Positions 11,772 to 40,901 of a stretch of 43,185 nucleotides of DNA are shown in pieces (positions within the stretch are counted from its first letter, which is position 1; every line of letters begins with the position of its first letter). The notes beneath the pieces are model-generated. The model searched no databases and was not told where the DNA came from. It saw only the letters and a program-made list of their open reading frames with translations. The position numbers and the translations under genes are program-made. Source of the DNA: an uncultured Ruminococcus sp. (lineage in GTDB: Bacteria; Bacillota; Clostridia; Oscillospirales; Acutalibacteraceae); assembly GCA_902765625.1 (NCBI GenBank), contig CACXAO010000012.1, positions 1 through 43,185 of the forward strand, given 5' to 3'.

Positions 11772-11872
11772 CTTGATCACTCCTTAAAATAAAAATTACA
11801 TATATACAAACCTGCCGGTGTTGGCGGGATTATAGTAATCAGCATATTTATTCATTTTAGCTTTTTACGACA

Positions 11873-24669: not shown

Positions 24670-24703
24670 TATGAGTCAATCCGGTTCTGACAAAACGAAC
24701 TGA

Positions 24704-24735
24704 CCCCGTCCGAAATAATCGGGCGGGGTATTTTT
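24704..24735 (+). terminator. Terminator after the three small ORFs
   Basis: A 10-bp GC-rich stem with one G-U (24704-24713 with 24719-24728) is followed by TATTTTT. It lies between convergent units and may also act on the long minus-strand operon, although the minus-strand tail is poor. Confidence 0.8.
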
Positions 24736-24754: not shown

Positions 24755-26125
24755 TCACGCCTGCAAGCCTGTCATAAGCGTAAGATAATATATTCCTGCC
24801 GTAGCCGCTGCCGACAGCACAAGCGACGGGACAACCCCTACCCTGAGCAAATCAGCCTCGCGGAAATAACCCTCTTTATACGAAATCAGATATATCGGCT
24901 CGGTGTGTATCAGCAGCAGCGCAGTCGCCGCCCAGAAGGACGCCGTCATAAGCAGCGCGCTGACGCTCAATCCTGTTGTCTCCGAGATCGAAATCAGCAT
25001 CGGCGCAAAAAGCGCTATAACTGCCGTTGTGGTCGGGATAAAAGCCCTGAGAACGCTGATAACCAAAGAGATTATCATCATGACCAGAAGCGGCGAAAGC
25101 GTTGTGATATTGGAAAACAGCGCGCCGGAAATATCCGACAGCAAGCCGGTGTTTGAAACAGCCGTCATAAGAATGCTCACGGAACCCATAGCCAGAACAA
25201 GATCCCAGTTGACTCCGCGGCTGAACTTTGGCATATCCAGCAGTCTGAACGGCGGAAGGAACATAACGCCAAGACCGATTACCGCGACCATTGTAGTATT
25301 GATGACCGTGCAAAAGCTTGTCAAAACCCATCCGGCGATCACGGCGATAACAATTACAAGCGTCGCGACGTCCTTTGACGAAAACCGAACCTCCGAATAT
25401 GTGATCGGCTCTGTGTTTTTTTCCGGACGAAAAACGAGAATTACGGTCAGCGCAAACAAAAGCACCGTGGGGACGCCGACGGTAAACCCTACGGCGCACC
25501 ACTTGAGGAAGGTGACCTCTATTCCCTGCTGAGCGAGAATATCGATAACGAGAATATTCGCGGGCGTTCCGGCAGGCGACATAAATCCGCCGATCCCGGC
25601 ACATGCCGGAACGGTAAGCATAAGCGCTTTTCCGAGGTTTGTCTGACCGGGCTTGATTCCGGACGATTTCAACGCCGAAACAATAAGCGCGGTAAACAGG
25701 GCGCAGGTCGCAAGGCTCGACACAAAAGCCGAAAACAGCGCGACTGTAACCGAAACGCCGATAACCAGCATTATCGGATGACCGCCGCATTTTTTCATCA
25801 GAAAATTTGTAAGGCACTTAGGGACAGCGCCGGTTGACAGCGCAATGGTTATTCCCGAGGAAGCCATAATGAACAGTGCGGTATTTACCCCGAAGTTCGA
25901 AATCACATCTACGAAATCCATTAATTCCAAAAACGGCAGCAACGAGATTATCAGCAGGGAGGATATGGAAATCGGCAAAGCTTCGGATATCCACAAAATC
26001 AGACATGCGGCAAGCACGCCAACCGCGCGCAGCTGCAGCGTGCAGTCCGCGTAAAACTGCGACACAACGACCGACGATATCAAGGCAGCGGCTGCGATAA
26101 TGACCGCTGCTGTTTTTTTCTCCAT
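24755..26125 (-). CDS. DASS/SLC13-family anion transporter
   Basis: 456 residues with about 11 membrane helices. It is of the divalent anion:sodium symporter type (dicarboxylate, citrate or sulfate uptake). The two inverted-repeat substrate motifs appear as S-P-A-G-T-P-A-N (near 180) and I-P-T-T-T-A-V (near 370), corresponding to the S-N-T/S-T-T signatures. GGAGG precedes the ATG, 31 bases after the hydrolase stop, so it is the last gene of the long Pel-type operon. Substrate and any link to polysaccharide export are unknown. Confidence 0.85.
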   Translation of the reverse strand: MEKKTAAVIIAAAALISSVVVSQFYADCTLQLRAVGVLAACLILWISEALPISISSLLIISLLPFLELMDFVDVISNFGVNTALFIMASSGITIALSTGAVPKCLTNFLMKKCGGHPIMLVIGVSVTVALFSAFVSSLATCALFTALIVSALKSSGIKPGQTNLGKALMLTVPACAGIGGFMSPAGTPANILVIDILAQQGIEVTFLKWCAVGFTVGVPTVLLFALTVILVFRPEKNTEPITYSEVRFSSKDVATLVIVIAVIAGWVLTSFCTVINTTMVAVIGLGVMFLPPFRLLDMPKFSRGVNWDLVLAMGSVSILMTAVSNTGLLSDISGALFSNITTLSPLLVMMIISLVISVLRAFIPTTTAVIALFAPMLISISETTGLSVSALLMTASFWAATALLLIHTEPIYLISYKEGYFREADLLRVGVVPSLVLSAAATAGIYYLTLMTGLQA

Positions 26126-26156
26126 CCTCTCCCCTCCTTTCAGACGTTTCGGGGCG

Positions 26157-27125
26157 TTACATGTACTGCCTGATAAACGGCAGCACCTTGCTCACAAACT
26201 CGGTCGTAACGTTATGTCCGGCGTTATCGAAATAGTAAAAGCGGATTTTTGTATTGCCGCCCTTTTTTAGGATTTTTTCCAGCGATTCGCTGCCCTTATA
26301 GGACACAACGTCATCGTTTATGCTGTTGCCCGACATAATCGGCATTTGCATAAGCTTGTCGGCATGCTGAATCGGGTTATACTGCGTGACAAACGCCTTT
26401 GTCTCCTCCTCGCTCCAAACAGGGTCGGCGACCTCGCCGTTGCATATGCACTTGTCGTCGTAGGAATACGAATAATCAGGCGACGTGCTGCCGACAACAA
26501 GCGCGCCGGGCACACGGTCGCCGTAGACCGAATACCAATACGCCACGCTTCCTCCCTGAGAAAACCCAACCAGCGCGAATTTATCCGCGTCTGCCAGACC
26601 TGCGGCTTCATAGTAATCGAGCAGCAAATCAAGATCGTCCGCAGTGTTCTTTGTGATTTCAAGAGCCATCAAAGGTTCTGACGAGATTCGCTCGCCGTGA
26701 CCCTGCAAATCAAGCGCGACGCAGAAATAACCTGCGTCTGCGTATTCCGTCATCTCGTCGAGATTCTCTTCCTTTTCGGAAAACTGACCGTGCAGGAATA
26801 TCACTATCGGCGCGTTTTTCGCGTCCCTGCGGTACATCTCGTAAACCGGAACCTCATCGACAAACTTATGGCTGACCTCAAATTCATCCGAAAGGTCGTT
26901 TTTCACCCTTTCCGCCGTATTGCCGAGAGAGTATTCTCCGACTGTATGCTGCGTGTTATCGCGCGTGCGGTTCCATGAGGAGGAATTCGTAAGAATCGAT
27001 TTTCCTTCATCGGGCAAATCGTTTGTTTTATTCTCTTCACTTCGGGTAAAAACGAATACTCCGACCGCAGCCGATGCTGTAACCGCGACGCACACGGCGG
27101 ATATCAATATTGCTTTCTTCTTCAT
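26157..27125 (-). CDS. Membrane-anchored alpha/beta hydrolase
   Basis: 322 residues from the ATG at 27125. A GTG three codons earlier overlaps the previous stop and lacks ribosome-site spacing. Residues 1-25 form a hydrophobic anchor facing outward. The catalytic serine lies in G-F-S-Q-G-G, the oxyanion loop is F-L-H-G-Q-F-S, and the histidine is in N-A-G-H-N-V. This resembles dienelactone-hydrolase or esterase folds. As part of the exopolysaccharide operon it may act as an extracellular esterase, for instance on O-acyl groups added by the two acyltransferases coded with it. That substrate is an inference. Confidence 0.75.
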   Translation of the reverse strand: MKKKAILISAVCVAVTASAAVGVFVFTRSEENKTNDLPDEGKSILTNSSSWNRTRDNTQHTVGEYSLGNTAERVKNDLSDEFEVSHKFVDEVPVYEMYRRDAKNAPIVIFLHGQFSEKEENLDEMTEYADAGYFCVALDLQGHGERISSEPLMALEITKNTADDLDLLLDYYEAAGLADADKFALVGFSQGGSVAYWYSVYGDRVPGALVVGSTSPDYSYSYDDKCICNGEVADPVWSEEETKAFVTQYNPIQHADKLMQMPIMSGNSINDDVVSYKGSESLEKILKKGGNTKIRFYYFDNAGHNVTTEFVSKVLPFIRQYM

Positions 27126-27130
27126 CTTAT

Positions 27131-29329
27131 TCACTGTTCCTGAACGGTCTTGGTCGTCGCAGCGAAAATATCGGTCAGAGTCGCCTTTGAAGCGATTCCG
27201 TCGGCGTTGATATCGTGCGCTTTTTGGTATGCGACAACCGCGTCCATCGTGTTTTTGTCATAAATCATAGTTATATTTTCAGCCTGCATATATCCCAGCT
27301 TCACGAGCTGCCTTTGAAGCCGCTTGACCGCCTGTCTGTCGGTGTGATTGACCGCGAACTGCTTTGTAAGCCATTTGCGGATGATTTTAAGCTGTCTGTC
27401 CGAAATCACCTGTCCCTTGGTGGCGGAGAGTGAGTCGCTGACAGACGCAGGCGACTGCCCGTCTGGACATGAAGCCGCGTCCTCTGCAAACAGCGACGCA
27501 AGAGTTTCTTTATCTGCGCTGCCTGTCGGCGAAATACCGTTCAGCTGCTGATAAAGCGTGACCGCCGTCTGCGTTTTGGAGTCGTAGCACGGATTGACCG
27601 AACCCGTGAGATAACGCAGCTCTTTGAGCCTTTGGTTCAGCTTGGTAACGGCTGGACAGATATCGCCCTTTTCCGTTTCGATAAAGCCGCTGTACCCGGC
27701 AGTATCGGCGCTGAATAAAAGCTCCGTAAGGCTTGAAGAAATGATTCCGCCGTCGTAATCAAGGCCGCTGTTCTGAGAGAACAGAGTCAGCGCCTGTTCG
27801 GTTGACGCGTCGATTTCTCCCGACCCGGCTTGCTTGTAATAACCGAGAGTTTTCAGCCGCGCCTGCAGATCTCTTACTCGGATCCCCTTTTCGGTTGACG
27901 AGAGAGTTGCGTTTGAGCTGTACTCGCTTAGTTTTTCGGAATTGACGCGGTACTGGAGCTCAGGCGTTGCGATTCCTGTTTCTTCCATGCCGAGCGCGGC
28001 TTGCAGATACTGCACCGCAACGGTTGTCTGTACGTCAAAAAAGCCGTTAGGCGCAGAGCTGAGATATCCAAGCTCGTAGAGCTTCTGTTGAAGCGCGCTC
28101 ACGTTCTCGCCGGCAGACGCCATCATCAGCGTTGTGTAACCGGAGTAATCGGCGCTTTCGTCCGTTGTGGCAGCCTTTGCCTGAACGGGCTTTTCCGCGT
28201 CGGCTTCATCCGGCAGAACCGTCGCGTCAAGCGCATAACAAAATGTTGCGTCGGCTTCCTTTGAGATATCGTAGACCATCAGGCGGTAATCGAATACCGA
28301 AATCAAGGGATTCTTTACACTTGAATCGATGCTGCAAAACGCCGAAAGCTCGTTGTTGTCGAGCAGCAGCCGGTAGACGTTGAAATTATCGTCCATCACA
28401 AAGGCATAGTCTGCGCTTACCGTAAGCTGAGGCAGAATGTTGTCGGCAAGCTTTGAAAGCTCCTTGTTCTGCTCCTCCGAAACAAAATACGCGCAGAGAG
28501 ATACGCCTTCGTCGGTCTTTTGAATATACAGAATTTCGTTATCCTGATAGCCGCACGGCACCAGAACATTTTCGGCGACCTGGACAGCCTCGTTTGAACC
28601 CATCCAGCGGTAGCTGAGAACGCCCTCCGGCGAGAGAATCAGGTCGTACTGCTCGCAGACGATTATTCTGCTTCCCTGACAATCGCAGTAAGGCTCTACC
28701 AGCTGCTTTGACAGCGGAATATAGAGCATTTCCTTTCCCGACGCGGCAGTCGCCAAAAGACCGTCGCTCGATATGCGCAAGCCGGTGATTTCCTCCTCAA
28801 ACTCCGCCGCGACCTCGGTGGTGGAGGTCAGAGGCTCAAAGGTGCAGAGCTGCTTTTTATTCTCGTCCTTAACAAAATATATGACCTCATCGTTCGACGA
28901 CCAGCACGGGTCAATCGACACGGTCGCAATAGTGTAGAGCGTGTTCTCGTTTTCGCCGATCTGAAGCTCCTGTATCATCGATTCTCTGCCGTAGTGCGAA
29001 AGGCTTGTTTCAACGGGCGCGGTGTAGAGAACGGTGTCGTCAGACGCGTAAAGCAGCTCGTCGACAGGCTGCTCTATTAGCGGCCTGCTCTCGTCGTCAA
29101 GGTTGTAAAGATAGTTGTTTTTGCCGACGTACGCAAACATCAGCTCGCCGCAGCTGCAATAATTCTTCGGTGTGACAAGAACGGCGTTTTGCGACGGAGC
29201 GGTAATTTCCTCGGGTTCTTCCTCAACGTCCCTCTGCGCATACATTATCAGAAAAACAGAGCCGACAACGGCAGCCGCTACAGCCGACAGCGCAATTATC
29301 ATCCGTTTAAGCGTAATTTGTTTTTTCAT
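27131..29329 (-). CDS. Membrane-anchored protein with four peptidoglycan-binding repeats
   Basis: 732 residues from the ATG (MKKQITLKRM) behind GAGGA; the frame could start six codons earlier at a TTG. A single TM anchor (~10-30) is followed by a ~370-residue extracellular region of short beta strands that looks like a beta-propeller (D-D-T-V-L-Y, N-D-E-V-I-Y-F-V, D-N-E-I-L-Y-I). Four PG_binding_1-type modules come next (~406-470, 480-545, 556-620, 661-725), each with L-Q-x-x-L-x-x-L-G-Y and a D-x-x-T-x-x-A-V-x-x-Y/F-Q core. Its stop overlaps the hydrolase gene. It is a good candidate for fixing the polymer or synthase to the cell wall in a bacterium without an outer membrane. Confidence 0.8.
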   Translation of the reverse strand: MKKQITLKRMIIALSAVAAAVVGSVFLIMYAQRDVEEEPEEITAPSQNAVLVTPKNYCSCGELMFAYVGKNNYLYNLDDESRPLIEQPVDELLYASDDTVLYTAPVETSLSHYGRESMIQELQIGENENTLYTIATVSIDPCWSSNDEVIYFVKDENKKQLCTFEPLTSTTEVAAEFEEEITGLRISSDGLLATAASGKEMLYIPLSKQLVEPYCDCQGSRIIVCEQYDLILSPEGVLSYRWMGSNEAVQVAENVLVPCGYQDNEILYIQKTDEGVSLCAYFVSEEQNKELSKLADNILPQLTVSADYAFVMDDNFNVYRLLLDNNELSAFCSIDSSVKNPLISVFDYRLMVYDISKEADATFCYALDATVLPDEADAEKPVQAKAATTDESADYSGYTTLMMASAGENVSALQQKLYELGYLSSAPNGFFDVQTTVAVQYLQAALGMEETGIATPELQYRVNSEKLSEYSSNATLSSTEKGIRVRDLQARLKTLGYYKQAGSGEIDASTEQALTLFSQNSGLDYDGGIISSSLTELLFSADTAGYSGFIETEKGDICPAVTKLNQRLKELRYLTGSVNPCYDSKTQTAVTLYQQLNGISPTGSADKETLASLFAEDAASCPDGQSPASVSDSLSATKGQVISDRQLKIIRKWLTKQFAVNHTDRQAVKRLQRQLVKLGYMQAENITMIYDKNTMDAVVAYQKAHDINADGIASKATLTDIFAATTKTVQEQ

Positions 29330-29347
29330 AATCATTTCCTCGTCCAA

Positions 29348-30388
29348 CTAAACTGAAAAATATGACAGTATCGGCAAGCGTCTGAAAACCGCGCTGAGCG
29401 TCAAGGCGACAATCAGCGATATTGCCGCATTTACCGGAATCGATATTGCCGGAGAAAGCGCGTCCGTAGAGAGCGTGCGGTTTGTTATGCCGACGACGAT
29501 CGCGCACAGCGGAATATAAACGTACGAGCAGCGCGCGACTGCGTTCCATATCGGCGCTGCGCCCTTATTTTTGCTTTTTTCGCAGAGCGTCATAATCAGC
29601 ACAATTACCGCCGAAACCTGGACGGCGACAAACGGCGACGCCTCGCTGACAAAGGTGTTGTCCATGCCGTTTTCCTGAGTGTATGTCCAGACGGCGGTTG
29701 AATACATCGCGACCGTAGACAGAACGCCTGCGCAGTAAATAACAACGCGGTAATGCCACTCAAAGCTCCTACGCGAGAGGAAAACGCCCAGAAACAGATA
29801 CAGCCCGAACTCGGTAAAGAAGCCCCAGTTTATCTGAGAAGCAAAGAGGTTAATATATCTGAGATACGGGATATACCGCAGAACAGGTACGATAACCGAC
29901 ATTACCGCAAAGACGGTCACCGCATACGCCGTCAGCTTTTCGTTATCGGCTATTCGTTTGAGCAGCGGATAAAAGGCAAAGAGCATAACGACAAGCATTA
30001 AAAGCTTGACTTGGTACGGGGTCTCGAGCACCTTCGCCATTGTCTCGAAAAATGTGTCGGTATCTATCTCGTCAGGCCGGGTGTTTTTCATCAGAAACAG
30101 CGTTGAAACAAGCCACCACACCGCAAGCCCGGCAAAAGCGCGCGGCAAACGTTTTTTGAGGATAAAGCCCACGGAATAAACCGGATCGCCCGTCAGATAC
30201 CGGCAGCCCATTCCGGCTATCAGCAGAGGGACTCCCCATGCGGAAGCTGCGGCGCAGCAGCCCGAAATATCCCACAGCGAATCGCTGAGCGAAGCTCCGT
30301 TCCAGACAGGCAGCGCAACATTCCAAAGCGCGATCGCCGCGAGCGATACCGACAGCATCACCAAGGCGCTGTTCTTTTTTTCGTGCAC
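29348..30388 (-). CDS. Acyltransferase_3-like membrane protein, catalytic motif not seen
   Basis: 346 residues with about ten membrane helices in the layout of the acyltransferase-3 family (OatA/WecH/Oac type): paired aromatic helices, a central N-W-G-F-F-T-E-F-G-L-Y-L-F-L-G-V-F segment, and L-M-K-N-T-R-P. GTG start behind GGAGGTG. The family's N-terminal R-x10-H catalytic pair, present in the other acyltransferase of this operon (38546-39586), is absent here: the first helix reads V-M-L-S-V-S-L-A-A-I-A-L-W-N. It may be a non-catalytic partner. It lies 42 bases after the pelG fusion gene. Confidence 0.7.
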   Translation of the reverse strand: MHEKKNSALVMLSVSLAAIALWNVALPVWNGASLSDSLWDISGCCAAASAWGVPLLIAGMGCRYLTGDPVYSVGFILKKRLPRAFAGLAVWWLVSTLFLMKNTRPDEIDTDTFFETMAKVLETPYQVKLLMLVVMLFAFYPLLKRIADNEKLTAYAVTVFAVMSVIVPVLRYIPYLRYINLFASQINWGFFTEFGLYLFLGVFLSRRSFEWHYRVVIYCAGVLSTVAMYSTAVWTYTQENGMDNTFVSEASPFVAVQVSAVIVLIMTLCEKSKNKGAAPIWNAVARCSYVYIPLCAIVVGITNRTLSTDALSPAISIPVNAAISLIVALTLSAVFRRLPILSYFSV

Positions 30389-30430
30389 GGGAACACCTCC
30401 TTTCGTTCTTCCGTAAATAATTGCAAAGTA

Positions 30431-33250
30431 CTACTCAACATGGAACTTTGCCGCAGTATAGACGTTTGTTTTGTACTCGTCCTTCATTGCCATAGGCAGC
30501 AGTTTTCCGTTCGCGGTTTCGGCGCTTACGGTCAGCGTATACTCCGTGTCGTCGTCGAAATCCTCTTTGTCGACCGAAACAGAGAAGCTGCCGCCTTCTC
30601 CCGGAATCACATTTGTCAGCTCAACATCCGCGTCGGTAATTGAACGGACAAGCGTGCCCTCGGGGTCATAAATATCAAGCCTTACCTTGTAGCCGCTGTC
30701 GTAAATCGGAGCTATGCCGTCGTTGACGATATTACAGCTGATATTGAAAGATTCTTTTTCCGCGAAATTCATGCTCACCTTATCGACGCGGTAGCGGTAA
30801 CCGAGAGTTTTGAGTATCTCGTCCATCTGGTACGAGAAGTTTGAATCGTCCTCATCGATAATTATCTTTGGTCCGATAAACGACTGGTGGCTCATTCGGA
30901 TGGCTTCTAGCGTCATGTCAAATTCGGTGCGCATAAAATACGAGTTCTCGTGAGTCTGCGCGAACTCGCCGCCTATCGGCTGAGACTTCCAGTTGTCGCT
31001 GCAGTCAGCCTGCTCAATCGCGCCGGTCTGCTCCCATTCGCTGTCCGTCATCTGGTTTATCCAGTAGAGCGTTTCGTCGTAATCGCCCGTAAGGTCGTTG
31101 TAAAGACCCGTTGAATTCTGCTTTGCGTCAACAAGCGGATAACGCAGCAGAAAACGAGCGTTCGGAAAAGCGTTAAGGTACGGCATAACGTACTGCTCTC
31201 TGACCTCGTACAAGGGCATAGGCTTCAGTCCCGCCTCGTAATCGACGTGCCATTCGCCCCAGTGACCGAGGCTGCCCAGCTCGACATATACGAAGAAATC
31301 GTCCTGTCCGAAGGCTTCTCCCAAGGCGGCGATCGCTTCGGCGTGCTCGGAGACAAATATCTCGTTTTCGTAGTTCGGAGAATAACCGCGGCCGTAGTTG
31401 ATATCATACATCTCTCCGTCTCCGGTCAGCTGATACAGCCATTCGGGAATATCCATGTGGGGTTCTTCCCTCGGCTCGTCACAAACAAATCTGAATACGA
31501 CCTGACGGTCTTCCTCGCGGTACAGCTCAAGATTGAAATGCTCGTTTACGTAGTCAACATCAAAAACGTCGTCCTCGGGTTCCCAGTCAGACCATTTCAG
31601 CTCGACATAGACGAGCGAAGTATTCATGGACGGGGTCTCGTCGCTGTCCGCCCACGGCGCAAGTCCCATTCCCGGAGAGAGAATGACGTCGTTTGACGAT
31701 TCGGGCGAGAATGTGATGATTTTTGACTTGTATACCGCGTCGCCGATAAGAAAAGCGACCGAGCCTAAAACCGTGACGGCAGCCATAGCCGCGGCTGCGC
31801 TGAGGTGAGTGAGCCTCTTTTTGCTGACGTTTTTTGAGCGTGCAGTCCGCGGAATGTTAACGGGTTCGTCGTACTGACCGCGGCACAGCAGATAAAACTC
31901 AAGCTTTTTGAGCCGCCTGATAAGTCCTGCGGCGGCGAACAGGGTCATAACTATGCTGACAGCCGTGAACGCGGCTCCGGAAAACCTCGGAAAGAACAGA
32001 ATGCCGAGATACGTTCCTGCCAAAACGCCTGCCGCAAAAAACGCCGCAGTGAATACCGCTCTGCGTTCGTCGGAAAACCACAGCCTTATCAGAATCAGCG
32101 TGCTGCCGATATAGTAAAGCGAATAACCGACGCAGAACATTCTGAACGCGGAGAGCATACTCTCCGTCATGCCGATATTCATAATGCCGAGCAGCTTTGA
32201 GCCGACCGTTACAAACAGCAGGCACGACACGAGCTGAATAAGGAACATCGTTTTTAATTTTTTGCGCAGCGTCAGAACCATATCGTCCTTTGCCGCTTCC
32301 ACACAGCGTGCTGTCGCGCTTTGCAGAGCCGAAAAATAATTACTGTATTTTTTGCTGAAACCCGTCTCGAAAGAAGTTATGAAATACACGGCGGCGGGAA
32401 TAGTCGAGAAATACGCCGCTATCGCCGGAAAATCATACTTTGCGTTGAACCGGAACAAAAGCGATATCTGCGTGGATGAGTCGCTGAGAAACCACGTCAG
32501 CCAGAAATGCCCCAGCATTCCCGCCGCCATCAAAAATCCGATGAGCAAGAGCGACGGGTTTGTTTTAATTGTACTGCGAAAGGCAAAAACCGAGTTGTCG
32601 TGCTTGGCAAAGGTCAGGTAGACCGCTCTGAACAAAAGGACGTCCACCGTCGCGAAGGCGAGCAGCAGCACAAGAATCATCGCGGGAACCGACAGCGCGG
32701 TAAACGCGAACAACAGCGCAAGAGCCGCCGCGGACACTCCAAACGCCGCCAGATATGCGATAACGATCTTTTTATAGTCGCGGATAAGCGTGATGTACGT
32801 CATCAATATCCAGCAGACGCACAGCGCCAAAAACAGGATAAACAGAGGTATAACGACCATAATCTCAGTTCCCGACAGCAATAGCTGAACCGAAAACAGA
32901 ATGCCGCCCGTTACCGCGACCGAAGCCGAGCCGCCGACCATCGACGGCATTACCCTCTCGGTTTTGCCAAGATAAACCGCGTCCGAAACATAGCGCGACA
33001 GCACCGGGGAAAGCAGAGAGCTGAGCAGAATCGACAGAAACATCGCGTTTGTGATGTAACACATAAAGCTGTCGTTTACCGCCTGAGAAGCCTGCTGCGC
33101 CTTTGCCGCTGCCTGCACAAGGGCGAAAATCACGATAGCGACGATCATCGAGCCGCTGCTGCTGAACGACGCGCCGAAGTAGCCCGTGATCTTTTCGCCT
33201 TTATTTTCGCCCGTTACGGCTTTTCGTAATTCAAATCCTACACCTGCCAT
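30431..33250 (-). CDS. pelG: PelG-like polysaccharide transporter fused to extracellular DUF4832-like domain
   Basis: 939 residues, about twice PelG length. Residues 1-455 are PelG: the family start M-A-G-V-G-F-E-L-R-K and about 12 membrane helices (MOP/Wzx-like, the presumed Pel polymer channel partner of PelF). After a basic linker, a further TM helix (~487-505) places the C-terminal half outside. Residues ~520-820 match DUF4832/DUF4874-type TIM barrels (S-P-G-M-G-L-A-P-W, E-L-K-W-S-D-W-E-P, V-E-L-G-S-L-G-H-W-G-E-W-H, P-I-G-G-E-F), with the acid residues expected of glycoside hydrolases. Residues ~825-939 are an Ig-like beta domain. It starts 2 bases after pelF. The barrel may replace the hydrolase domain of Gram-negative PelA (inference). 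Confidence 0.85.
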   Translation of the reverse strand: MAGVGFELRKAVTGENKGEKITGYFGASFSSSGSMIVAIVIFALVQAAAKAQQASQAVNDSFMCYITNAMFLSILLSSLLSPVLSRYVSDAVYLGKTERVMPSMVGGSASVAVTGGILFSVQLLLSGTEIMVVIPLFILFLALCVCWILMTYITLIRDYKKIVIAYLAAFGVSAAALALLFAFTALSVPAMILVLLLAFATVDVLLFRAVYLTFAKHDNSVFAFRSTIKTNPSLLLIGFLMAAGMLGHFWLTWFLSDSSTQISLLFRFNAKYDFPAIAAYFSTIPAAVYFITSFETGFSKKYSNYFSALQSATARCVEAAKDDMVLTLRKKLKTMFLIQLVSCLLFVTVGSKLLGIMNIGMTESMLSAFRMFCVGYSLYYIGSTLILIRLWFSDERRAVFTAAFFAAGVLAGTYLGILFFPRFSGAAFTAVSIVMTLFAAAGLIRRLKKLEFYLLCRGQYDEPVNIPRTARSKNVSKKRLTHLSAAAAMAAVTVLGSVAFLIGDAVYKSKIITFSPESSNDVILSPGMGLAPWADSDETPSMNTSLVYVELKWSDWEPEDDVFDVDYVNEHFNLELYREEDRQVVFRFVCDEPREEPHMDIPEWLYQLTGDGEMYDINYGRGYSPNYENEIFVSEHAEAIAALGEAFGQDDFFVYVELGSLGHWGEWHVDYEAGLKPMPLYEVREQYVMPYLNAFPNARFLLRYPLVDAKQNSTGLYNDLTGDYDETLYWINQMTDSEWEQTGAIEQADCSDNWKSQPIGGEFAQTHENSYFMRTEFDMTLEAIRMSHQSFIGPKIIIDEDDSNFSYQMDEILKTLGYRYRVDKVSMNFAEKESFNISCNIVNDGIAPIYDSGYKVRLDIYDPEGTLVRSITDADVELTNVIPGEGGSFSVSVDKEDFDDDTEYTLTVSAETANGKLLPMAMKDEYKTNVYTAAKFHVE

Positions 33251-33252
33251 AG

Positions 33253-34638
33253 CTACAGTACATCCTTGTATATTTTGAGATATCCGCTGTTCATTTTCTC
33301 ATATGTATAATTCATCCGCACGCGTTCGCGGCCGTTTCTGCCCAGTTCAAGGCGCAGCTCACGGTTATTGCACAGCTTCTCCATCGCTGCCGCTATGCCG
33401 CTTATGTCCATGGGAGTGCAGCAGATTCCGGCTTCTCCAAAGCCGTCGGCGGACTTGCCGAGCAGCTCAGGGCAGTTGCCTACCTTTGTTGACACGCACG
33501 GTCTTGACGCCGCGAGCGACTCCAGTATCGCCAGCGGCTGACCCTCGGAAATGCTTGTCATCACGGTGAAATCCATTTTTGACATATAAAGCGCCGTGTC
33601 AACATAACCCTCGACGCGGATATTGCTCAGGTTCAGTCTTTCGAGCAGTTCAAGACACTCGTCGCGGTAGGTTTCGTCATCTGTGCCTCCCATTAGGTAC
33701 AGCTCGGCGTTCGGAACACGTTTTCTGAGGTGATAAAACGCGTAGATCAGTGTTTTCACGTCCTTGATCGGCGCAAATCTGACGAACGCCCCTATATTGA
33801 TACCGTCAGACTCCTCTCTGACGGGGATGCTTTCGAAATTTTCGATATGTATTCCGTTTGAAACAACGGAGCATTTTTCTTTATCGCAGCCGATCTCGGT
33901 CTGCTTTGCGGACGCGTCGGAAAACAGCGCGGTCACTCTGTCGGCGTAGCTGTAGGCGCATTTTGAGAGCTGATAGAACGACCGTATCCATATCTCTCTC
34001 ATTGAAGGCGCTACCCAGTCAGCCTGAATAAGCTCCTCCTCGCGCTCGCGCGGATATATTCCGTGCTCGGTCAGAACAAAGGGTTTTCCGGTTTTGTATT
34101 TTGCAAGCGCGCCCAGTACGCCGCCGTATCCGGCTACGGCGCTGTGATAAATATCCGCCCCGGGGATCTCTTGTCCCAACAAAAACAGCAGCGGTGTGAA
34201 AAGCGACTTCAAGCCGTAATAAGCGTCCGCAAGTCCGATTCCGTCGGTATCGGAAAGCTCCTTTACAAATCCGTAAAAGGCCTCGGACTCAACCAGCTCT
34301 TTTGCGGAAGCCGACCCCGTACAAGTCTGAAACAGGCTTTGCCAATTCACCTCGCCGCGTTCCAAAAACATTCTCAGACTGTCAATGCAAGACTCAAGGC
34401 TCTCCTTTGTCAGCTTGCCGCCGTTCGGCTTTACCGCGTCCTCAAGGTAGATCTCACGGCAGCACGCCACATTGCCGGGCAGCTGATACAGCGCATTGCC
34501 CGTATATTTTCGCGCGGCATAGATCGTCCACAGAACAAACTCAATCTGCGGATTCGAAAGAATATAATCGTGCGCCCACGCTGAAACGCCGCCTCTGATA
34601 TACGGATAGCAGCCCTCAAGAATCAAACAAACTCTCAT
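33253..34638 (-). CDS. pelF: PelF-like glycosyltransferase
   Basis: 461 residues. It is a GT4 (GT-B fold) cytosolic enzyme that in Pel systems polymerises a GalNAc/GlcNAc-type chain from UDP-sugar. The PelF N-terminal block E-G-C-Y-P-Y-I-R-G-G-V-S-A-W-A-H-D is at residues 8-24. The GT4 acceptor/donor motif E-G-Q-P-L-A-I-L-E (E-x7-E) and G-N-C-P-E-L-L stand near residue 370. GGTGGA precedes the ATG. The gene overlaps the end of the deacetylase gene by 23 bases and abuts pelG, so the three are translationally coupled. Confidence 0.93.
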   Translation of the reverse strand: MRVCLILEGCYPYIRGGVSAWAHDYILSNPQIEFVLWTIYAARKYTGNALYQLPGNVACCREIYLEDAVKPNGGKLTKESLESCIDSLRMFLERGEVNWQSLFQTCTGSASAKELVESEAFYGFVKELSDTDGIGLADAYYGLKSLFTPLLFLLGQEIPGADIYHSAVAGYGGVLGALAKYKTGKPFVLTEHGIYPREREEELIQADWVAPSMREIWIRSFYQLSKCAYSYADRVTALFSDASAKQTEIGCDKEKCSVVSNGIHIENFESIPVREESDGINIGAFVRFAPIKDVKTLIYAFYHLRKRVPNAELYLMGGTDDETYRDECLELLERLNLSNIRVEGYVDTALYMSKMDFTVMTSISEGQPLAILESLAASRPCVSTKVGNCPELLGKSADGFGEAGICCTPMDISGIAAAMEKLCNNRELRLELGRNGRERVRMNYTYEKMNSGYLKIYKDVL

Positions 34639-36703
34639 TTTTTTCCACCGTTTTTATCGTGATTTCGGGAGATTTGGCTTCGAGGATATATACGTTGTCC
34701 GAGCATTCGCTGACTTCTCCTCCGTCAACGGAAACGATCTTCTTTCCGTTGGTGCGTACCATCATATACGCCGTATCTATCAGACCGTCAAGCTTCAGGG
34801 TCATGGTATCTCCGTCGATATTCTGCGTGTAGTTTAGGTTGCAGTACCTCTGCACCGCAGCGCCGCATTCCGAAATCGTGGTATCGCGCAGACCCATGCT
34901 GCGGTTCCACTCTATCATCTGCCTGTAGCCCGAAAGCATCTGGTCAAAATCTCCGCCGTCGCTTCTCTGTTCGTCGAGAATATCGTCGGGATGAATAAAG
35001 TTGGACTCAATATAGTGATAGTTCAGCTCGTTGAGCTGAGTCCACCACTCGCTGTCCTCCATCTGCATATCGGCAGTCAGTCTCGGACAGTACACAACGC
35101 CGTTTGAAAGCACCTTGTACTCCTGAACAAGCTGGTCTGCGGTGCCTGTATATACGCCGGCGTAAATTCTGAGGTTTTCGATCTGACTTATCATTTCGGT
35201 AAGAGCCTCATTGCTGAGCACATTGCTCGGCGCAACGTAGGCTTCAACATACAAGTCGTCAGTAAGGCCTTCGGTATATTTGATGACCGATTTTACCGAT
35301 TCGAGCATAGACATTACGTTAGGCCACGCTGTGTAGCCCTCGTTTTCCTTGTCGAACTTATACCCCTCGAGAACAAGAGGCTGATGGTTGTAGCCGTGGA
35401 TCCCCACTTCGCCGCCCATGTTCAGGATAAGGCTTGCGTAGTACGCGGCAGACTCACGGTTGTCGGTGTTACCGAACTCTCCGCTCGTATTGTTATCGTA
35501 GGTCTGAACGGCAAAGGTCGAGTATTTTATGCCATATTCATCGGCGATTCTTTGCATTGAAGGCATCCAGACGTTCGCGTAAAAATCGCCGACGGTATAT
35601 CCGTACTGCGCGACTACATTTTTCTCGTATCCAGCCGGAATCGGAGAAGGACAGTCGTCGATACAATACACTGAGGCGTTGATAACCGGATACGCGTACA
35701 CCGGGTAAAAACGGCAGTGCACAGCCGCTATGATTCCTCTGTCGTTCTTGGCTTCCATCAAATCAGCGTTGCAGACAAATACCTGTCCTTTTTCTGACTT
35801 GCGTTCCCACAACAGCGGAACCGGGGTTTCTTCGGCGGTTGAGATATGAACCGTGCAGTCCTTGCGCACAGCCACTTCGAGAACCTCTCCGGATATTACG
35901 TCGTCGGAAAACTCCCTGTCGTTGGTTCCCGCAAGCAAATCGGTATTGAAGCGCAGCGAATCAGCAAGAACCGGCGCAGCCTCCTGTTCAGGCTCCGTGC
36001 CGAGGATATCCGACCATTTTGCCAAATCGGTTTTTTCATCAAGTCCGCCTGCGAAAATCAGGTGACCGCCGCCGTTGAGCCACGCGCCGAGCTTCTCTAT
36101 ATCCTGCTCCATTACGGAAATATCCGAAAAGCAAACTGCGATTTCATCATAGCTTTGGTAGTCTATCTCGGGAATCACGGTCTTTTCGGGCACGGTTGGC
36201 TGTTCAGCTGCGTCCGCAGAGTCCTTTGTCGCCGCGTCGTTTACGTCAGCAGCGCTTTCGTCGGCAGTCTTTTCCGCTTCGGTGTTCTCAACCGTCGGGT
36301 CGTCGGTTCCGCGAATACTGAATTGTCTGTTTTTTTGTACAGGGTCGTCCGGGTCAGGCTCCGCCGCGATGTAAAAATCCTTGACTGATACGTTCACGTT
36401 CAGAGAATTCAGAGTATAGACGATGTTCTCTGACAGACGGCGGCTGTACCTCTCGCCTGCGCTTCTGAGCACAAGACACTCAGGCGCATTCGCAGCGACC
36501 GCGCCGGCGTTCTCGTTTTTGACCTCGTACCACCTGTCCTCGTCTATCAGAGTGCTCTCCGACGTATTTGTGACCGCGCGGTAGCCCTTTTGCTCAAACA
36601 GCAGCAGCGTGCCGAGCAGTCCGAACAGCAGGACAAACACAACCGTTTCAACGCCAAGCGCTTTGAGATTATTCGGTTTTTTTATCTTATGTATCATCTT
36701 CAT
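34616..36703 (-). CDS. PelA-like extracellular polysaccharide deacetylase (DUF2194 type)
   Basis: 695 residues. An N-terminal TM helix (~15-35) is followed by a Rossmann/GATase-like domain (~50-340) that includes a low-complexity Ala/Asp/Glu-rich insert (~135-175). A polysaccharide deacetylase barrel follows, with metal residues suggested by D349-D350 (C-I-D-D-C-P-S), H436-G-Y-N-H440, Y-V-A-P-S-N and F-I-H-P-D-D, and a C-terminal beta domain. It matches the deacetylase part of PelA, which removes N-acetyl groups to make the polymer cationic. The PelA hydrolase (GH166) domain is not seen. The start overlaps pelE by 17 bases. Confidence 0.82.
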   Translation of the reverse strand: MKMIHKIKKPNNLKALGVETVVFVLLFGLLGTLLLFEQKGYRAVTNTSESTLIDEDRWYEVKNENAGAVAANAPECLVLRSAGERYSRRLSENIVYTLNSLNVNVSVKDFYIAAEPDPDDPVQKNRQFSIRGTDDPTVENTEAEKTADESAADVNDAATKDSADAAEQPTVPEKTVIPEIDYQSYDEIAVCFSDISVMEQDIEKLGAWLNGGGHLIFAGGLDEKTDLAKWSDILGTEPEQEAAPVLADSLRFNTDLLAGTNDREFSDDVISGEVLEVAVRKDCTVHISTAEETPVPLLWERKSEKGQVFVCNADLMEAKNDRGIIAAVHCRFYPVYAYPVINASVYCIDDCPSPIPAGYEKNVVAQYGYTVGDFYANVWMPSMQRIADEYGIKYSTFAVQTYDNNTSGEFGNTDNRESAAYYASLILNMGGEVGIHGYNHQPLVLEGYKFDKENEGYTAWPNVMSMLESVKSVIKYTEGLTDDLYVEAYVAPSNVLSNEALTEMISQIENLRIYAGVYTGTADQLVQEYKVLSNGVVYCPRLTADMQMEDSEWWTQLNELNYHYIESNFIHPDDILDEQRSDGGDFDQMLSGYRQMIEWNRSMGLRDTTISECGAAVQRYCNLNYTQNIDGDTMTLKLDGLIDTAYMMVRTNGKKIVSVDGGEVSECSDNVYILEAKSPEITIKTVEKNESLFDS

Positions 36704-37349
36704 TCAGCGCAGTCTCTTTTCTTTGATTTTCCCGATTATACTCAAGCATTTGTTCCGCTTCCTCATCCTTCGGCAGCACGCGCAGCAGGCTTATCAGCAG
36801 GCTCTCCTGCAAAAGCAAAAGCTCTGCCGCCGCCTCGCCCTCAAGCAGTCCCGACGCATAGTATTCGCCGACAACGACTATATATTTTTTCAGCAGCTCC
36901 ATATTGTCCGGCAGCTGCAGATATTCATCTCTCAGTGAAGAAATGCGCTTTTCGTATTCGCGCTGCAGCTTCATGATGGTTGCCGCGGAAATGTGCGCCA
37001 CCTCGATATCGTCGGATTCCACTCCGCACTTCAGAATGGCGACGAGATTGTCCGGCTGAGTTTCTATAACGTCGAGCAGTGTTTCTCTTGTGACCGGCAG
37101 CTCGAAGCTCACCTCGCCGCAATATCTTGTTCTGCCTGATGAGATTTCACGGTGAAACAGCTTTTCTGACGGGAACACCGTGTCCGCTCTGCCGAATTCG
37201 GACGCGAAAAGGCACAGCTCGCCAACCAGCGGCACCAGCGCGGCGAACAGCAGATGAATATATGAATGGCGCGACAGCTTTTTTTCTATGGCTATAGCGT
37301 ACAGCAGCACCAGCAGCACATGCAGGCTTAATATCATTACAATCAGCAT
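36687..37349 (-). CDS. pelE: PelE-like membrane protein
   Basis: About 220 residues from the ATG read as MLIVMILSLH, which follows GGGAG by six bases; a TTG nine codons earlier is less likely. Two N-terminal membrane helices (~1-22 and 32-55) precede a cytoplasmic helical domain (~90-205) of HEAT/TPR character, as in PelE, which scaffolds PelD and PelF at the membrane. Position between the PelD-like and PelA-like genes agrees. The sequence is too divergent for certainty without a profile search. Confidence 0.75.
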   Translation of the reverse strand: MLIVMILSLHVLLVLLYAIAIEKKLSRHSYIHLLFAALVPLVGELCLFASEFGRADTVFPSEKLFHREISSGRTRYCGEVSFELPVTRETLLDVIETQPDNLVAILKCGVESDDIEVAHISAATIMKLQREYEKRISSLRDEYLQLPDNMELLKKYIVVVGEYYASGLLEGEAAAELLLLQESLLISLLRVLPKDEEAEQMLEYNRENQRKETALNEDDT

Positions 37350-37384
37350 ATAATTCTCCCGGAGCCGGCGGTTCAAATCAACGC

Positions 37385-38533
37385 TTACTCAGCGTCACGG
37401 CGGCTTCTTTTTTCTCTTGTCTCCTGATAGATTCCAAGCAGAACGGCAATCACGAAATAAACCGCGATCGGTATCCAGTTATCGACGTGATAAAACAGGA
37501 CATACCAGCGATAACCGGCAATCAGGCTTTGCGCGACGCTCGAAACGCTGCACATTGCCGCGGCGGCTATACCGTATCTCTTTCCGAAAAACAGCGATGA
37601 CGCAACCACAAACAGCAGCCGCAGATCGACAAACTGCAGGTCTGATGAGACTGTGACGAATTGCGTGTACATCTCTACCAGCGCAAAAAGAACCGCAAAT
37701 ACGCCGATCGTGAACGCGGTACTTATTCCTTTTTTCCGCTTCACCGTCTGCAATTCTCTGCGTCGGGTTTCTTCCGAGTCCAAAATCGCGGAAAGGTCTT
37801 TGATAAAGCTGTGCTCACACGACCAGCCGTCCGACTGATAAGGCTGATAATTCCGCTCTGTCAGCCGTGTTTCATACGGCAGCGTGCTGACGGAGGTGTA
37901 TCTCTCTGTAAGGCTGCCGACAAGCTCGGAGAGTCTGAACGGATACGCGCTTTGCAGCTGAACTCTCCAAAAATCCTCCGTCTGATCGCTGCAGAGGATA
38001 TCGCTTACCGCAGCGCAAAAGTCGTCGGCATGCAAAGAGTCGCAGATTTCTTCCGCAGCTCCGTCAGGACAAAACTCGCGGCGGCGAATGATCGACTCCA
38101 GCCGCTCTTGAAGATACGACGGGATTTTCTCCTCAGAATACAGACATGATACCGACAGATAAACGGTTTTTACCCCGTATCTGCCTGCAAGCTCTCCGCA
38201 CATCCAGTCGGCAGCGTCTGTCTTTGTTTCTCTGCGGCGAAAGAACGGCTGCTCCTTTATGTAAATAAGACGGCAATCCGGGTTCTCCGCAACGCCCGAA
38301 AAAATTCTCTCAACAGCGCTGACTGCGGCAGACGCTTCCTCTATGCAAATAACGGTATCGATATTTCTATCGCGAACAGCCGACCCGATATCGGCGGATG
38401 AATCGATTATACTGCAGTCGGTTTCATAGACGGGCTTATCCAAAAAAGCAGCGGTAACGGAATGCTCCGGCGATATGGCGTTAACAAGCTTTGCGCCGAC
38501 GTACCGCGACTCGCCGATATATAAAATATTCAT
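37385..38533 (-). CDS. SDR-PelD(TM) fusion lacking the GAF-GGDEF receptor
   Basis: 382 residues. Residues 1-235 resemble an NAD-dependent epimerase/SDR fold (N-I-L-Y-I-G-E-S-R-Y-V-G-A-K-L-V), but the catalytic Y-x3-K was not found, so it may be structural only. Residues ~268-372 hold about four membrane helices of PelD type (F-A-V-L-F-A-L-V-E, R-L-L-F-V-V-A-S-S-L-F-F-G-K-R-Y-G, N-W-I-P-I-A-V-Y-F). The protein ends ten residues later (E-K-R-S-R-R-D-A-E) where PelD would continue into GAF and degenerate GGDEF domains that bind c-di-GMP. PelE begins 35 bases on, so no receptor is hidden in another frame. GGAGG precedes the ATG. Confidence 0.75.
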   Translation of the reverse strand: MNILYIGESRYVGAKLVNAISPEHSVTAAFLDKPVYETDCSIIDSSADIGSAVRDRNIDTVICIEEASAAVSAVERIFSGVAENPDCRLIYIKEQPFFRRRETKTDAADWMCGELAGRYGVKTVYLSVSCLYSEEKIPSYLQERLESIIRRREFCPDGAAEEICDSLHADDFCAAVSDILCSDQTEDFWRVQLQSAYPFRLSELVGSLTERYTSVSTLPYETRLTERNYQPYQSDGWSCEHSFIKDLSAILDSEETRRRELQTVKRKKGISTAFTIGVFAVLFALVEMYTQFVTVSSDLQFVDLRLLFVVASSLFFGKRYGIAAAAMCSVSSVAQSLIAGYRWYVLFYHVDNWIPIAVYFVIAVLLGIYQETREKRSRRDAE

Positions 38534-38545
38534 AGGGATCCTCCA

Positions 38546-39586
38546 TCAAACGATATATCTGCCCAGCAGAGGGATTTTGCCGACCAGAAAGCTCAGGAAA
38601 AAGCTCATCGGCAGCACAAAAAGTATCAGCATCGGTATCATATAAACCGCCGGATACGTCAGCGGAGAAAAACCGAATTTATCAAGCAGAGCAAGCAGCA
38701 CGACATGGATCATGTAAACCCCGAAGGTCAGCTTTGAAATGTCCAGAATCAGCTTTTGGTGCTCCGCCTTGAACTCTGTGCGGCTGAGCCTGTATTTTGC
38801 AAAAACAAAAATCGCAATACCCTGCAGCGCGGTGAACAGATTGTTGTCCGCCTGCATATCCTCGTTGTGCGCGCCGTCCCTGACCGTCAGCAGATAAGTA
38901 CCGACAAATACTATTACGGTCGAGAGGATTCCGACGGCGTAAATAACCTTTCTCACGCCGGGAGTGATTTCGATGTTGTGAAGAAGATATCCGATGAAGA
39001 AAAAGCATACGTATGAGGAAAAGAATCCAAAATGATGCGTGCCGGTGATCAGGGTATTATCAAGGAACCATCCCATGTCCTGCAAAAAAGGCACAATCAC
39101 GCCCGTAACGGCAGTAACCGCGGTTATCATATACGTTGCCCTGCGGTTACTTGTCACCGTTCTGAGCAAGGGAGTAAGAATATACATACCGATTATCATC
39201 GGCAAAAACCAGAGGTGGAAATGCCCCTGAAAAACCATCTCCGCAAAGCTGTCGGTAAGATCCTGTCCCGAAAACGTATTGTAAAAAGCATAGAATACCG
39301 CCCAGAAAAAGAACGCGCACAGCATTCGGAAGATATTCCTTTTATAAAGTCTGTCTATTGTAATATTCCGCCCGGGATCCAAAAAGCTTGCTCCGCTTAT
39401 CATCATAAACACAGGCACCATCCATGCGGAAAGAGAGCCGTATACATTGCAAACCCACCAGTCGGCGCCCAGTGTCGGAACAAATTCAAAGGTCGCCGTC
39501 GCGCTGTGGCGTATCACAAGAAACACCATCGCGGCTATCCTGAGAATATCCCAGTACCATATTCGTTTTTTTGACGCAGTTGCCAT
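38546..39586 (-). CDS. Membrane O-acyltransferase (acyltransferase_3 family)
   Basis: 346 residues with about ten membrane helices. The catalytic R16-x10-H27 of the family is intact (L-R-I-A-A-M-V-F-L-V-I-R-H-S). N-W/H-F-G-F-F-S-S-Y-V-C-F-F-F-I-G-Y-L-L and H-L-W-F-L-P-M segments are typical of OatA/WecH/NolL-type proteins, which move acetyl or succinyl groups onto extracytoplasmic sugars. GGGAG precedes the ATG. It is 4 bases after the CapK-like gene and 12 bases before the SDR-PelD gene, which suggests O-acylation of the Pel-like polymer (inference). Confidence 0.85.
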   Translation of the reverse strand: MATASKKRIWYWDILRIAAMVFLVIRHSATATFEFVPTLGADWWVCNVYGSLSAWMVPVFMMISGASFLDPGRNITIDRLYKRNIFRMLCAFFFWAVFYAFYNTFSGQDLTDSFAEMVFQGHFHLWFLPMIIGMYILTPLLRTVTSNRRATYMITAVTAVTGVIVPFLQDMGWFLDNTLITGTHHFGFFSSYVCFFFIGYLLHNIEITPGVRKVIYAVGILSTVIVFVGTYLLTVRDGAHNEDMQADNNLFTALQGIAIFVFAKYRLSRTEFKAEHQKLILDISKLTFGVYMIHVVLLALLDKFGFSPLTYPAVYMIPMLILFVLPMSFFLSFLVGKIPLLGRYIV

Positions 39587-39590
39587 CCGA

Positions 39591-40901
39591 TTATTCTCCC
39601 GAATATCTTAAATCCTCTACTCTTTTCGCCTTTCCCGTAAAGCGCTGCAGCGTTTCCGGATTAACAAGTCTGGTGTTGACTCTGACAATCACCATTTCTC
39701 TCAGCTTATTCTGCAGGCAGTCCTCGATCTCCTGCAGCTTCCTGTCAGACAACAGCTCTTTTGGCTGCTTCAGCTCCACAAACAGTGTGGCGGTATCGAC
39801 AAAGCCTTCTCTCTCGAGCCTGATGTGATAATACGGGCTGAGTCCGTCTGTCTCATCGATCGCGCATTCGATCTGCGAAGGAAATACGTTTACTCCCTTA
39901 AACACAAACATATCGTCCGTCCGCGCAAACGGCGCCGACATTCTGACGCTTGTTCTTCCGCAGCGGCATTTGACGTGGTTCAGGGTGGTGATATCTCTTG
40001 TTCTGTACCGCAGAAGCGGCATTCCTTCTCTGAGCAGTGAGGTAAAAACCAGCTCGCCCTGTTCGCCGTCGGGAAGCGCCTCTCCCGTTGCTGGATCAAT
40101 GATCTCGGGATAGAAAATATCCTCTGAGATGTGCATACCTGCATGATACTCACATTCGCCTGCAACTCCGGGTCCGAAGCACTCGGTCAATCCGTAGTTA
40201 TCGGCGGTTACAACGCCGAGATTGTTCTCGATCGTTTCGCGCATGCTTTTTGTGCACCGCTCGGCTCCGAGAAGCACCTTGCCGATCCGGAATTCCCCGC
40301 GCGGAATGCCCGACTTCGAAATCACCTCAGACAGATATGTCGCGTACGACGGAGTTGCCATCAGAGCGGTAACGCCTACATCATGAAGCATGACCAGCTG
40401 CTTTTTTGTGTTTCCGGTCGACGCAGGAACGATGGTGCAGCCGATTTTCTCTGCGCCCTGATGAAATCCCAGCGCACCGGTAAACAGACCGTACCCGACG
40501 GAAATCTGCATTATATCGCTCTTTGTGATTCCGTTGAGAACGAGAACGCGCGCGGCTGCCTCTGCCCAGATTTCCATATCCCTGCGCGTATAGTAGCCTA
40601 TCGTAGGCTTGCCGGTGGTTCCCGACGAAGCGTGTATCCGCGCGACCTTATCCATGCCTACCGCCAGCAGCCCGTCCGGATAATTCTCTTTTAAGTCGTC
40701 TTTTGTGGTAAAAGGCAGTTTGCGGATATCTTCAAGCGATTCTATATCACACGACGACGTGATTCCTGCCTTGTTCAGCTTGTCTTTGTAAAACGGAACG
40801 TTATCAATACAATAGTCAACCATCTTACGCAGCCGATTGAACTGCAGCTCTCTGAGCTGTTCTCCCGGCATTGTTTCTATCTCCTTATTAAAGTAACACA
40901 T
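39591..40901 (-). CDS. PaaK/CapK-family AMP-dependent ligase
   Basis: 436 residues from the ATG read as MCYFNKEIETMPGEQ, preceded by GGTGA. It has an ANL-fold adenylating enzyme with the P-loop-like S-S-G-T-T-G-K-P-T, the Y-G-L-T-E-C-F-G-P-G-V-A core motif, and the C-terminal R-F-T-G-K-A-K-R-V lysine. It is closest to phenylacetate-CoA ligases, but relatives called CapK occur in capsule loci. As first gene of the operon, directly before an acyltransferase, it might supply an activated acyl group. Alternatively it is an ordinary aryl-CoA ligase co-transcribed by chance. Confidence 0.85.
   Translation of the reverse strand: MCYFNKEIETMPGEQLRELQFNRLRKMVDYCIDNVPFYKDKLNKAGITSSCDIESLEDIRKLPFTTKDDLKENYPDGLLAVGMDKVARIHASSGTTGKPTIGYYTRRDMEIWAEAAARVLVLNGITKSDIMQISVGYGLFTGALGFHQGAEKIGCTIVPASTGNTKKQLVMLHDVGVTALMATPSYATYLSEVISKSGIPRGEFRIGKVLLGAERCTKSMRETIENNLGVVTADNYGLTECFGPGVAGECEYHAGMHISEDIFYPEIIDPATGEALPDGEQGELVFTSLLREGMPLLRYRTRDITTLNHVKCRCGRTSVRMSAPFARTDDMFVFKGVNVFPSQIECAIDETDGLSPYYHIRLEREGFVDTATLFVELKQPKELLSDRKLQEIEDCLQNKLREMVIVRVNTRLVNPETLQRFTGKAKRVEDLRYSGE

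Follow-up and report, generated by a model that had tools for sequence, protein, structure and literature searches.

A Pel operon of an uncultured Ruminococcus with an exporter–hydrolase fusion and a PelD lacking GAF and GGDEF domains

A 43,185-nucleotide stretch of contig CACXAO010000012.1 (GenBank assembly GCA_902765625.1, uncultured Ruminococcus sp.), hereafter the window, carries eleven open reading frames (ORFs) of 229–939 residues on its minus strand, running from position 40901 (or an alternative TTG start at 40943) down to 24755. A first-pass annotation had described a variant operon for the exopolysaccharide Pel, with eleven same-strand genes overlapping or within about 42 bases of each other. 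Both points were borne out: spacing between the genes was −23 to +42 bp, and PelF, PelG, PelADA, PelE, and PelD were all recovered by profile or sequence matches. Missed at that stage were the in-frame fusion of PelG to a DUF4832-type hydrolase, the loss of GAF and GGDEF domains from PelD, the intact CE26 deacetylase residues of PelADA, and another Pel locus carried by this genome. Judged from its sequence, the locus is a distinct and rare Pel subtype, marked by the exporter–hydrolase fusion, a PelD that appears blind to cyclic di-GMP (c-di-GMP), and a replaced accessory set. The eleven genes, in operon order, are:

39591..40901, minus strand: g1, PaaK-type acyl- or aryl-CoA ligase, 436 residues, alternative start TTG 40943 (PF00501/PF14535)
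38546..39586, minus strand: g2, AT3 membrane acyltransferase, 346 residues, with Arg16 and His27 (PF01757, 6.7e-33)
37385..38533, minus strand: g3, PelD reduced to a degenerate SDR domain and a membrane domain (hhalign 99.7%)
36687..37376, minus strand: g4, PelE-like protein, 229 residues, two hydrophobic helices and a soluble region (99.5% by hhalign with nine PelE, E 3e-22)
34616..36703, minus strand: g5, PelADA, DUF2194/CE26 deacetylase (PF09960, 2.9e-107)
33253..34638, minus strand: g6, PelF, GT4 glycosyltransferase (NF038011, 271 bits, cut-off 100)
30431..33250, minus strand: g7, PelG–hydrolase fusion, 939 residues, in frame (PF16933 and PF16116)
29348..30388, minus strand: g8, AT3-related membrane protein (similar by BLAST to g2-type protein, 3e-13 to 8e-19)
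27131..29347, minus strand: g9, membrane-anchored protein with four PG_binding_1 repeats (PF01471, four stretches; hydrophobic helix 16–34)
26157..27134, minus strand: g10, membrane-anchored alpha/beta hydrolase (PF00326, 1.1e-11)
24755..26125, minus strand: g11, DASS-type anion transporter (PF03600, PF00939)

By profile and sequence tests, five of the products are core proteins of a Gram-positive Pel system: PelF, PelG, PelADA, PelE, and PelD. PelF (g6) retained 65 of the 67 columns conserved across 30 other PelF proteins. Against solved sequences, PelADA (g5) had a single match at E up to 1, to 9ZAU (5e-53), the B. cereus PelADA on which family CE26 was founded (PMC13254593). Aligned with 9ZAU, g5 carries D349 and D350, H436xxxH440, P492-S-N494, R541, and H571-P-D573-D574, the equivalents of which are named as catalytic, metal-binding, or substrate-binding in the B. 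cereus enzyme (PMC13254593); by these residues g5 qualifies as a predicted CE26 deacetylase. The annotation had left its PelE-, PelD-, and PelA-like proteins to be checked by profile, and all three passed (99.5%, 99.7%, and the 9ZAU match, respectively).

What had been taken for a plain PelG is a PelG only in its first part (residues ~1–455; PF16933 at 1–453, 287 bits against a cut-off of 29). A basic stretch follows, then an extra hydrophobic helix (~485–503), then a hydrolase part of ~430 residues (~510–939) in which PF16116, DUF4832-type, matches at 714–892 with 44.6 bits. Net charge is +5 before the extra helix and 0 after it; this pattern, together with the stand-alone relatives, fits a hydrolase half lying outside the cell. 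The hydrolase part kept 49 of 54 positions conserved in 17 stand-alone relatives (counting polar, Gly, and Pro letters only), including D591, D600, GSLGHWGEWH, and E762; the five changed positions are 525, 577, 704, 737, and 738. A search of solved structures with the hydrolase alignment returned weak matches only, the best of which (E 8e-4) paired the beta-rich C-terminal part with a stretch of bacterial protective antigen structures; we read this as a generic beta-sandwich likeness and drew nothing from it. An open frame of 1236 aa whose middle part is a DUF4832-type hydrolase region was also seen on a 6.7-kb contig with no Pel match (L066, 2563-6273, minus strand).

The same fusion, 937 residues long and 70% identical over 937 residues, is present in the uncultured Clostridiales bacterium RUG074 (locus L006), a rumen metagenome-assembled genome (MAG) that represents a second species of the same genus and is the nearest named record. 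An assembly chimera or frameshift was rejected as the source of the fusion, given this recurrence in an independent MAG. Between the two species, non-synonymous divergence (dN) was ~0.21 in each half of g7 and 0.57 in the linker, with synonymous divergence (dS) at ~1 or more, near saturation, so that ratios are rough. Elsewhere the fusion was not encountered: in 33 of the 34 fetched PelG-bearing loci other than the window, PelG occupies a frame of 471–556 residues, and RUG074 alone has the fusion. Among genomes scored, the window's own excluded, it was found in 0 of 58 relatives, 0 of 393 from the order, 0 of 390 from the class, 0 of 397 from the family, 0 of 397 from the phylum, and 1 of 160 from the genus; the samples overlap, and scored candidates per genome numbered at most two for class, family, and phylum and at most four for order. 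A separate scan of genome contigs for related loci, built on six peptide patterns, has a reach limited to close relatives. The sole positive (G1207:C76:5337-8147) was taken to be RUG074 itself, its coordinates being identical to those of the match on the reversed L006 contig. A full-text search for fus, fused, or fusion in the papers treating DUF4832 with PelG found no mention of a PelG fusion, the 2021 Pel review (PMC7890745) lying outside its scope. Fusions in exopolysaccharide loci are catalogued in PMC7112194, among them those of bcs and pga; broader literature searches turned up no PelG–hydrolase fusion.

PelD is the second departure. Aligned with nine clostridial PelD proteins, g3 spans 373 columns, all within the SDR-like and membrane regions, and the match stops at residue 408 of the first row, which has 704; GAF and degenerate GGDEF domains are absent from g3. 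A displaced GAF-GGDEF half was sought and rejected, tblastn in the window and L006 giving a best E of 0.80. The operon consequently lacks the GAF domain and RxxD-bearing degenerate GGDEF domain that mark a c-di-GMP-gated Pel system. With nine GGDEF matches in the genome, a want of GGDEF proteins does not account for the missing PelD sensor; the PelD of the second Pel locus (C5) keeps an RQDD site. In 26 of 27 other loci (window, L006, and C5 excluded; L073 counted over two frames), PelD could be aligned with the C5 PelD (436 residues) as far as residue 417 or beyond, through the GGDEF part; in L065 the alignment ends at 319. The strict RxxD pattern was found in 15 of 29 PelD sequences; L006 misses it by truncation, and among the remaining sequences without it are cut ones and ones in which the spacing varies. 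In the nine-PelD alignment, R656 and D659 are invariant. Loss of both GAF and GGDEF in an organism with GGDEF proteins is thus unusual. In L073, PelD runs across two reading frames (4432-6655, plus strand), from a frameshift or a sequencing error.

The trees relate the fusion to the Pel loci that carry CotH. In the PelG tree it fell inside a group of 24 rows (100/100), the remaining 22 of which all come from CotH-bearing loci; its position within the group had support of 80/74 only, and four more CotH-bearing loci (L073, L074, L075, L117) lay outside the group. The hydrolase half joined five rows from CotH-bearing loci (L007–L010 and L113; 88/85). Among the fetched CotH-bearing loci, 14 have a DUF4832 gene, and 13 of these show the order PelG-CotH-VTC-DUF4956-DUF4832; the exception is L064, where that gene is divergent and upstream. 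In a further 12 CotH-bearing loci the fetched stretch, cut in some cases, held no DUF4832 gene. Of this CotH-type clostridial cassette the window holds the DUF4832 hydrolase, fused to PelG. CotH, VTC, and DUF4956 had no Pfam match among the eleven products, and tblastn in the window and L006 gave a best E of 0.44. Because the DUF4832 gene follows CotH-VTC-DUF4956 downstream of PelG, a single deletion would yield the fusion, and deletion of those three genes with in-frame joining is the simplest inference as to how it arose. Within one of the CotH-bearing loci, L113, a tandem pair of DUF2194 (PelADA) genes was seen (3287-7009, plus strand).

Such a deletion could also have left behind a tether and nothing else, with the hydrolase working at the surface in dispersal, the role proposed for the S. 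intermedius enzyme, and uncoupled from export. The gene order just described would suit this, as would the N-terminal hydrophobic helix found on several stand-alone enzymes. S. intermedius SIR_1591 (a transmembrane helix, a TIM barrel, and DUF4832) is reported to be an active hydrolase, yet its deletion gave no aggregation phenotype (PMC12345266). Set against the tether are the persistence of the fused form in both species, each half of it under constraint, and the 1:1 ratio of hydrolase to exporter, which one would hardly expect of a dispersal enzyme. We consider the tether rather unlikely. A natural fusion, with exporter and hydrolase fixed at 1:1, bears directly on whether Pel-locus hydrolases act during export or in dispersal only.

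The annotation of the accessory genes needed revision. Its CapK-like ligase, g1, is a ligase, but of the PaaK type: the closest solved relative is phenylacetate-CoA ligase 4r1l (3.7e-114), and g1 scores under the NCBIfam PaaK cut-offs. A housekeeping PaaK role for g1 was rejected, since two further PaaK-type genes occur in the genome (47% and 33% identical to g1), each beside 2-oxoacid oxidoreductase-like genes (by eye); g1 is a third, operon-bound paralogue. Of the two acyltransferases that had been proposed, g2 combines PF01757 with Arg and His in helix 1 and so qualifies as a predicted AT3 protein; we take R-x10-H to be the AT3 form of this pair. In g8 there is no Pfam match, and Leu and Asn replace the AT3 Arg and His in both the window and L006, so that of the two only g2 looks competent as an acyltransferase. 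The His is catalytic in AT3 proteins (PMC9833829), which are reported to pass acyl groups from acyl-CoA to an extracytoplasmic acceptor (PMC9833829; PMC12423673). The suggestion of an acylated polymer stays plausible with a PaaK-type ligase and g2, and is weakened by the degenerate look of g8.

The four peptidoglycan-binding repeats of g9, on which an adaptation to a thick wall had been proposed, are real; their link to the polymer is putative. The ~350 residues before the repeats look beta-propeller-like by eye only. A search with the g9 alignment gave weak matches only, all in the repeats, with the N-terminal domain unmatched and the propeller not confirmed. The anchored hydrolase and the anion transporter were correctly named: g10 has a likely S192-D274-H307 triad, kept in L006, and g11 also scores 130 bits with TIGR00785, under its cut-off of 198.6. 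None of g1, g2, and g8–g11 had a tblastn match at E 1e-3 in 39 other fetched stretches, L006 aside. AT3-like genes too distant for that test were seen by eye near L075 and L079.

In L006, g1–g11 stand in identical order at protein identities of 53–87%, g11 being cut at the contig end. Identity was 81% for g1, 87% for g2, 70% for g9, 75% for g11, and 53–70% for the core, as compared with 85% for CTP synthase; dN of the operon genes was 0.08–0.42, against dS of ~1 or more where computable (g10 was not). The upstream neighbour there is a glucosamine-6-phosphate deaminase-like gene (by eye), in place of the HipA_C-like gene of the window. Membership of the flanking genes, previously assumed from spacing only, is thereby supported: the accessory genes appear to be part of the unit, on the strength of an eleven-gene order kept in a second species behind a different upstream neighbour. 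Both species belong to one genus, so that shared order weighs less than it would across families; set against this, core proteins have diverged well beyond CTP synthase while the order was kept. Were g1–g2 and g8–g11 unrelated passengers in the transcription unit, the higher identity of g1 and g2 than of the core would be explained by a separate history, and the shared order by the shared genus. The tight gaps, retained along with the order despite the divergence of the core and the change of neighbour, argue otherwise, and we regard passengers as quite improbable.

The start of g1 at ATG 40901 is favoured, the L006 homologue starting at the equivalent residue. Upstream lies the divergent HipA_C-like gene (41339-42382, plus strand), whose match, at 29.4 bits, is just under the 30.5 that Pfam requires, and which is not found upstream of g1 in L006. 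Downstream are a convergent pyrG and ~0.9 kb without a large ORF. Contamination of the contig was rejected: the CTP synthase next to the operon is 72–93% identical to those of six genus members searched, the 93% value covering a 208-residue fragment only. Two candidate signals flank the operon:

40955..40984, minus strand: promoter-like site TTGCCA-18-TAAGAT, ~50 bp upstream of g1 (consensus match only)
24703..24729, strand not assigned: 11-bp hairpin just 3' of g11, a possible terminator

An aligned TTGACA-18-TATAAT lies ~87 bp upstream of g1 in L006, again a consensus match only, and in the window a better match (11/12) lies farther upstream, at 41574-41547. The U-run directly after the hairpin is on the plus strand, opposite to the operon. 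A promoter and terminator splitting the cluster into unrelated units had been named as refuting the annotation. With 42 bp or less between neighbouring genes, there is hardly space for an intergenic terminator, but promoter-like sites (e.g. 33602-33575 inside pelF, 10/12 matches) and terminator-like sites occur within the genes, and transcription may also start internally; over both strands, promoter-like sites numbered 29 as against 17.7 in shuffles, by consensus matching only. There was no Rfam match at gathering score in the window, the c-di-GMP riboswitch included. Elsewhere in the window, all on the minus strand, are an ammonium transporter with a fused P-II regulatory domain (10014-11780, 588 aa), a GMP synthase-type ORF of 327 aa (6815-7798) with GMP_synt_C and PP-loop-type matches but no match to a glutaminase domain, and a 500-aa ORF (7952-9454) with zero Pfam matches at E 0.01.

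On balance, we favour the following reading: the operon, akin to the clostridial Pel loci that carry CotH, encodes a c-di-GMP-blind Pel synthase, and its polymer is deacetylated and cleaved where it leaves the exporter and may be acylated as well. PelF would polymerise an amino sugar, by analogy N-acetylgalactosamine, and PelD, PelE, and PelG would form a membrane complex from which PelG exports the chain. At the outer face the chain would meet the fused DUF4832-type hydrolase, 1:1 with the exporter, and the tethered PelADA, and so be cut or limited in length, and partly deacetylated, as it exits. Such exit-coupled processing has a modelled precedent in the B. cereus PelADA, which was modelled as docking on PelG via its transmembrane helix (PMC13254593). 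With the c-di-GMP-binding half of PelD gone, synthesis would escape gating by c-di-GMP and would probably be set by transcription. The PaaK-type ligase g1 may supply an acyl- or aryl-CoA from which g2 would transfer the acyl group onto the polymer outside; g10 may trim acyl groups, and g9 may hold machinery or product in the wall. Both g8 and g11 may have parts in this too. A stronger version, which we offer tentatively and do not expect to hold, is that g7 cuts or transglycosylates each exiting chain, with export obligatorily coupled, the product being a short or wall-attached, deacetylated, acylated surface glycan and not a biofilm matrix, free of c-di-GMP control.

Several observations weigh against the favoured reading. 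The PelG half is very divergent, and so may not be moving Pel itself: of 33 positions that 33 other PelG proteins conserve it kept 24, its median identity to 22 CotH-type PelG is 27% as compared with 47% among those, and its stem branch is 2.98. Crude hydropathy gives it 11 helices where 12 are expected of PelG (PMC13254593), leaving the topology unsettled. The window PelE lacks a C-terminal part found in that of L006, and PelD and PelE are fast-evolving (53% and 57% identity to L006). RUG074 has a single short GGDEF match, and c-di-GMP may be of little weight in that organism. Finally, the evidence comes from two genomes of one genus, both draft assemblies ~88–89% complete.

The divergent PelG, together with the missing GAF-GGDEF and CotH-VTC-DUF4956 and the new set of ligase, AT3, peptidoglycan-binding, and esterase genes, could point to machinery redirected to a different Pel-derived polymer, e.g. 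a wall-linked or acylated amino-sugar glycan, in place of a secreted matrix. However, the conserved columns of PelF and the CE26 residues of PelADA make the substrate chemistry look Pel-like, and we hold redirection to be doubtful. The truncated PelD, shortened PelE, g8 without its AT3 residues, and presence in only one of the 160 other genus genomes might instead mark a Pel locus decaying towards loss. All eleven genes are open, however, the catalytic residues are kept, and dN is well below dS wherever it could be computed; decay seems very improbable.

The second Pel locus of the genome (G000:C5, also L003, 39-11055) resembles the favoured system in having PelD, PelE, DUF2194, DUF4832, PelF, and PelG. 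It differs in the C-terminal half of PelD with its RQDD site, a separate hydrolase, and a 799-aa membrane protein, and its DUF2194 matched none of the three CE26 motif patterns. The two loci thus contrast control schemes within one genome: RxxD without CE26 motifs in one, deacetylase residues without a c-di-GMP site in the other. L003 belongs with L069, L070, L078, L118, and L119 in a second Pel lineage in which DUF2194 lacks all three patterns in six of six loci, suggesting a Pel-like system without deacetylation; the DUF2194 of L117 also lacks them. Each locus of this lineage has a multi-membrane protein of 729–802 aa, membrane glycosyltransferase-like by eye (that of L003 without a Pfam match), and some have further glycosyltransferases and a flippase-like protein nearby (by eye).

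Clostridial Pel loci with accessory genes have already been published (PMC7112168). Like B. cereus pelDEA(DA)FG, the window has a PelADA in which the residues named as catalytic or metal-binding are present (PMC13254593); the B. cereus system differs in that its PelD binds c-di-GMP and its glycoside hydrolase is separate and divergently transcribed (PMC7112168). The class IV PelD of S. intermedius, with a degenerate SDR and no GGDEF, resembles that of the window in lacking a c-di-GMP-binding domain (PMC12345266). The S. intermedius protein has a GAF domain, however (PMC12345266), and the window genome encodes GGDEF proteins. Closest in layout are the clostridial and streptococcal pelDEA(DA)FG loci (PMC7112168; SIR_1591-1594, PMC12345266), which share with the window the order PelD-PelE-PelADA-PelF-PelG, an SDR-bearing PelD, and a DUF4832 hydrolase. 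From the CotH-type loci of these groups the window departs in that its hydrolase is fused to PelG, its PelD is without GAF and GGDEF, and in place of CotH, VTC, and DUF4956 it adds genes for a ligase, an AT3 protein, a peptidoglycan-binding protein, an esterase, and a transporter.

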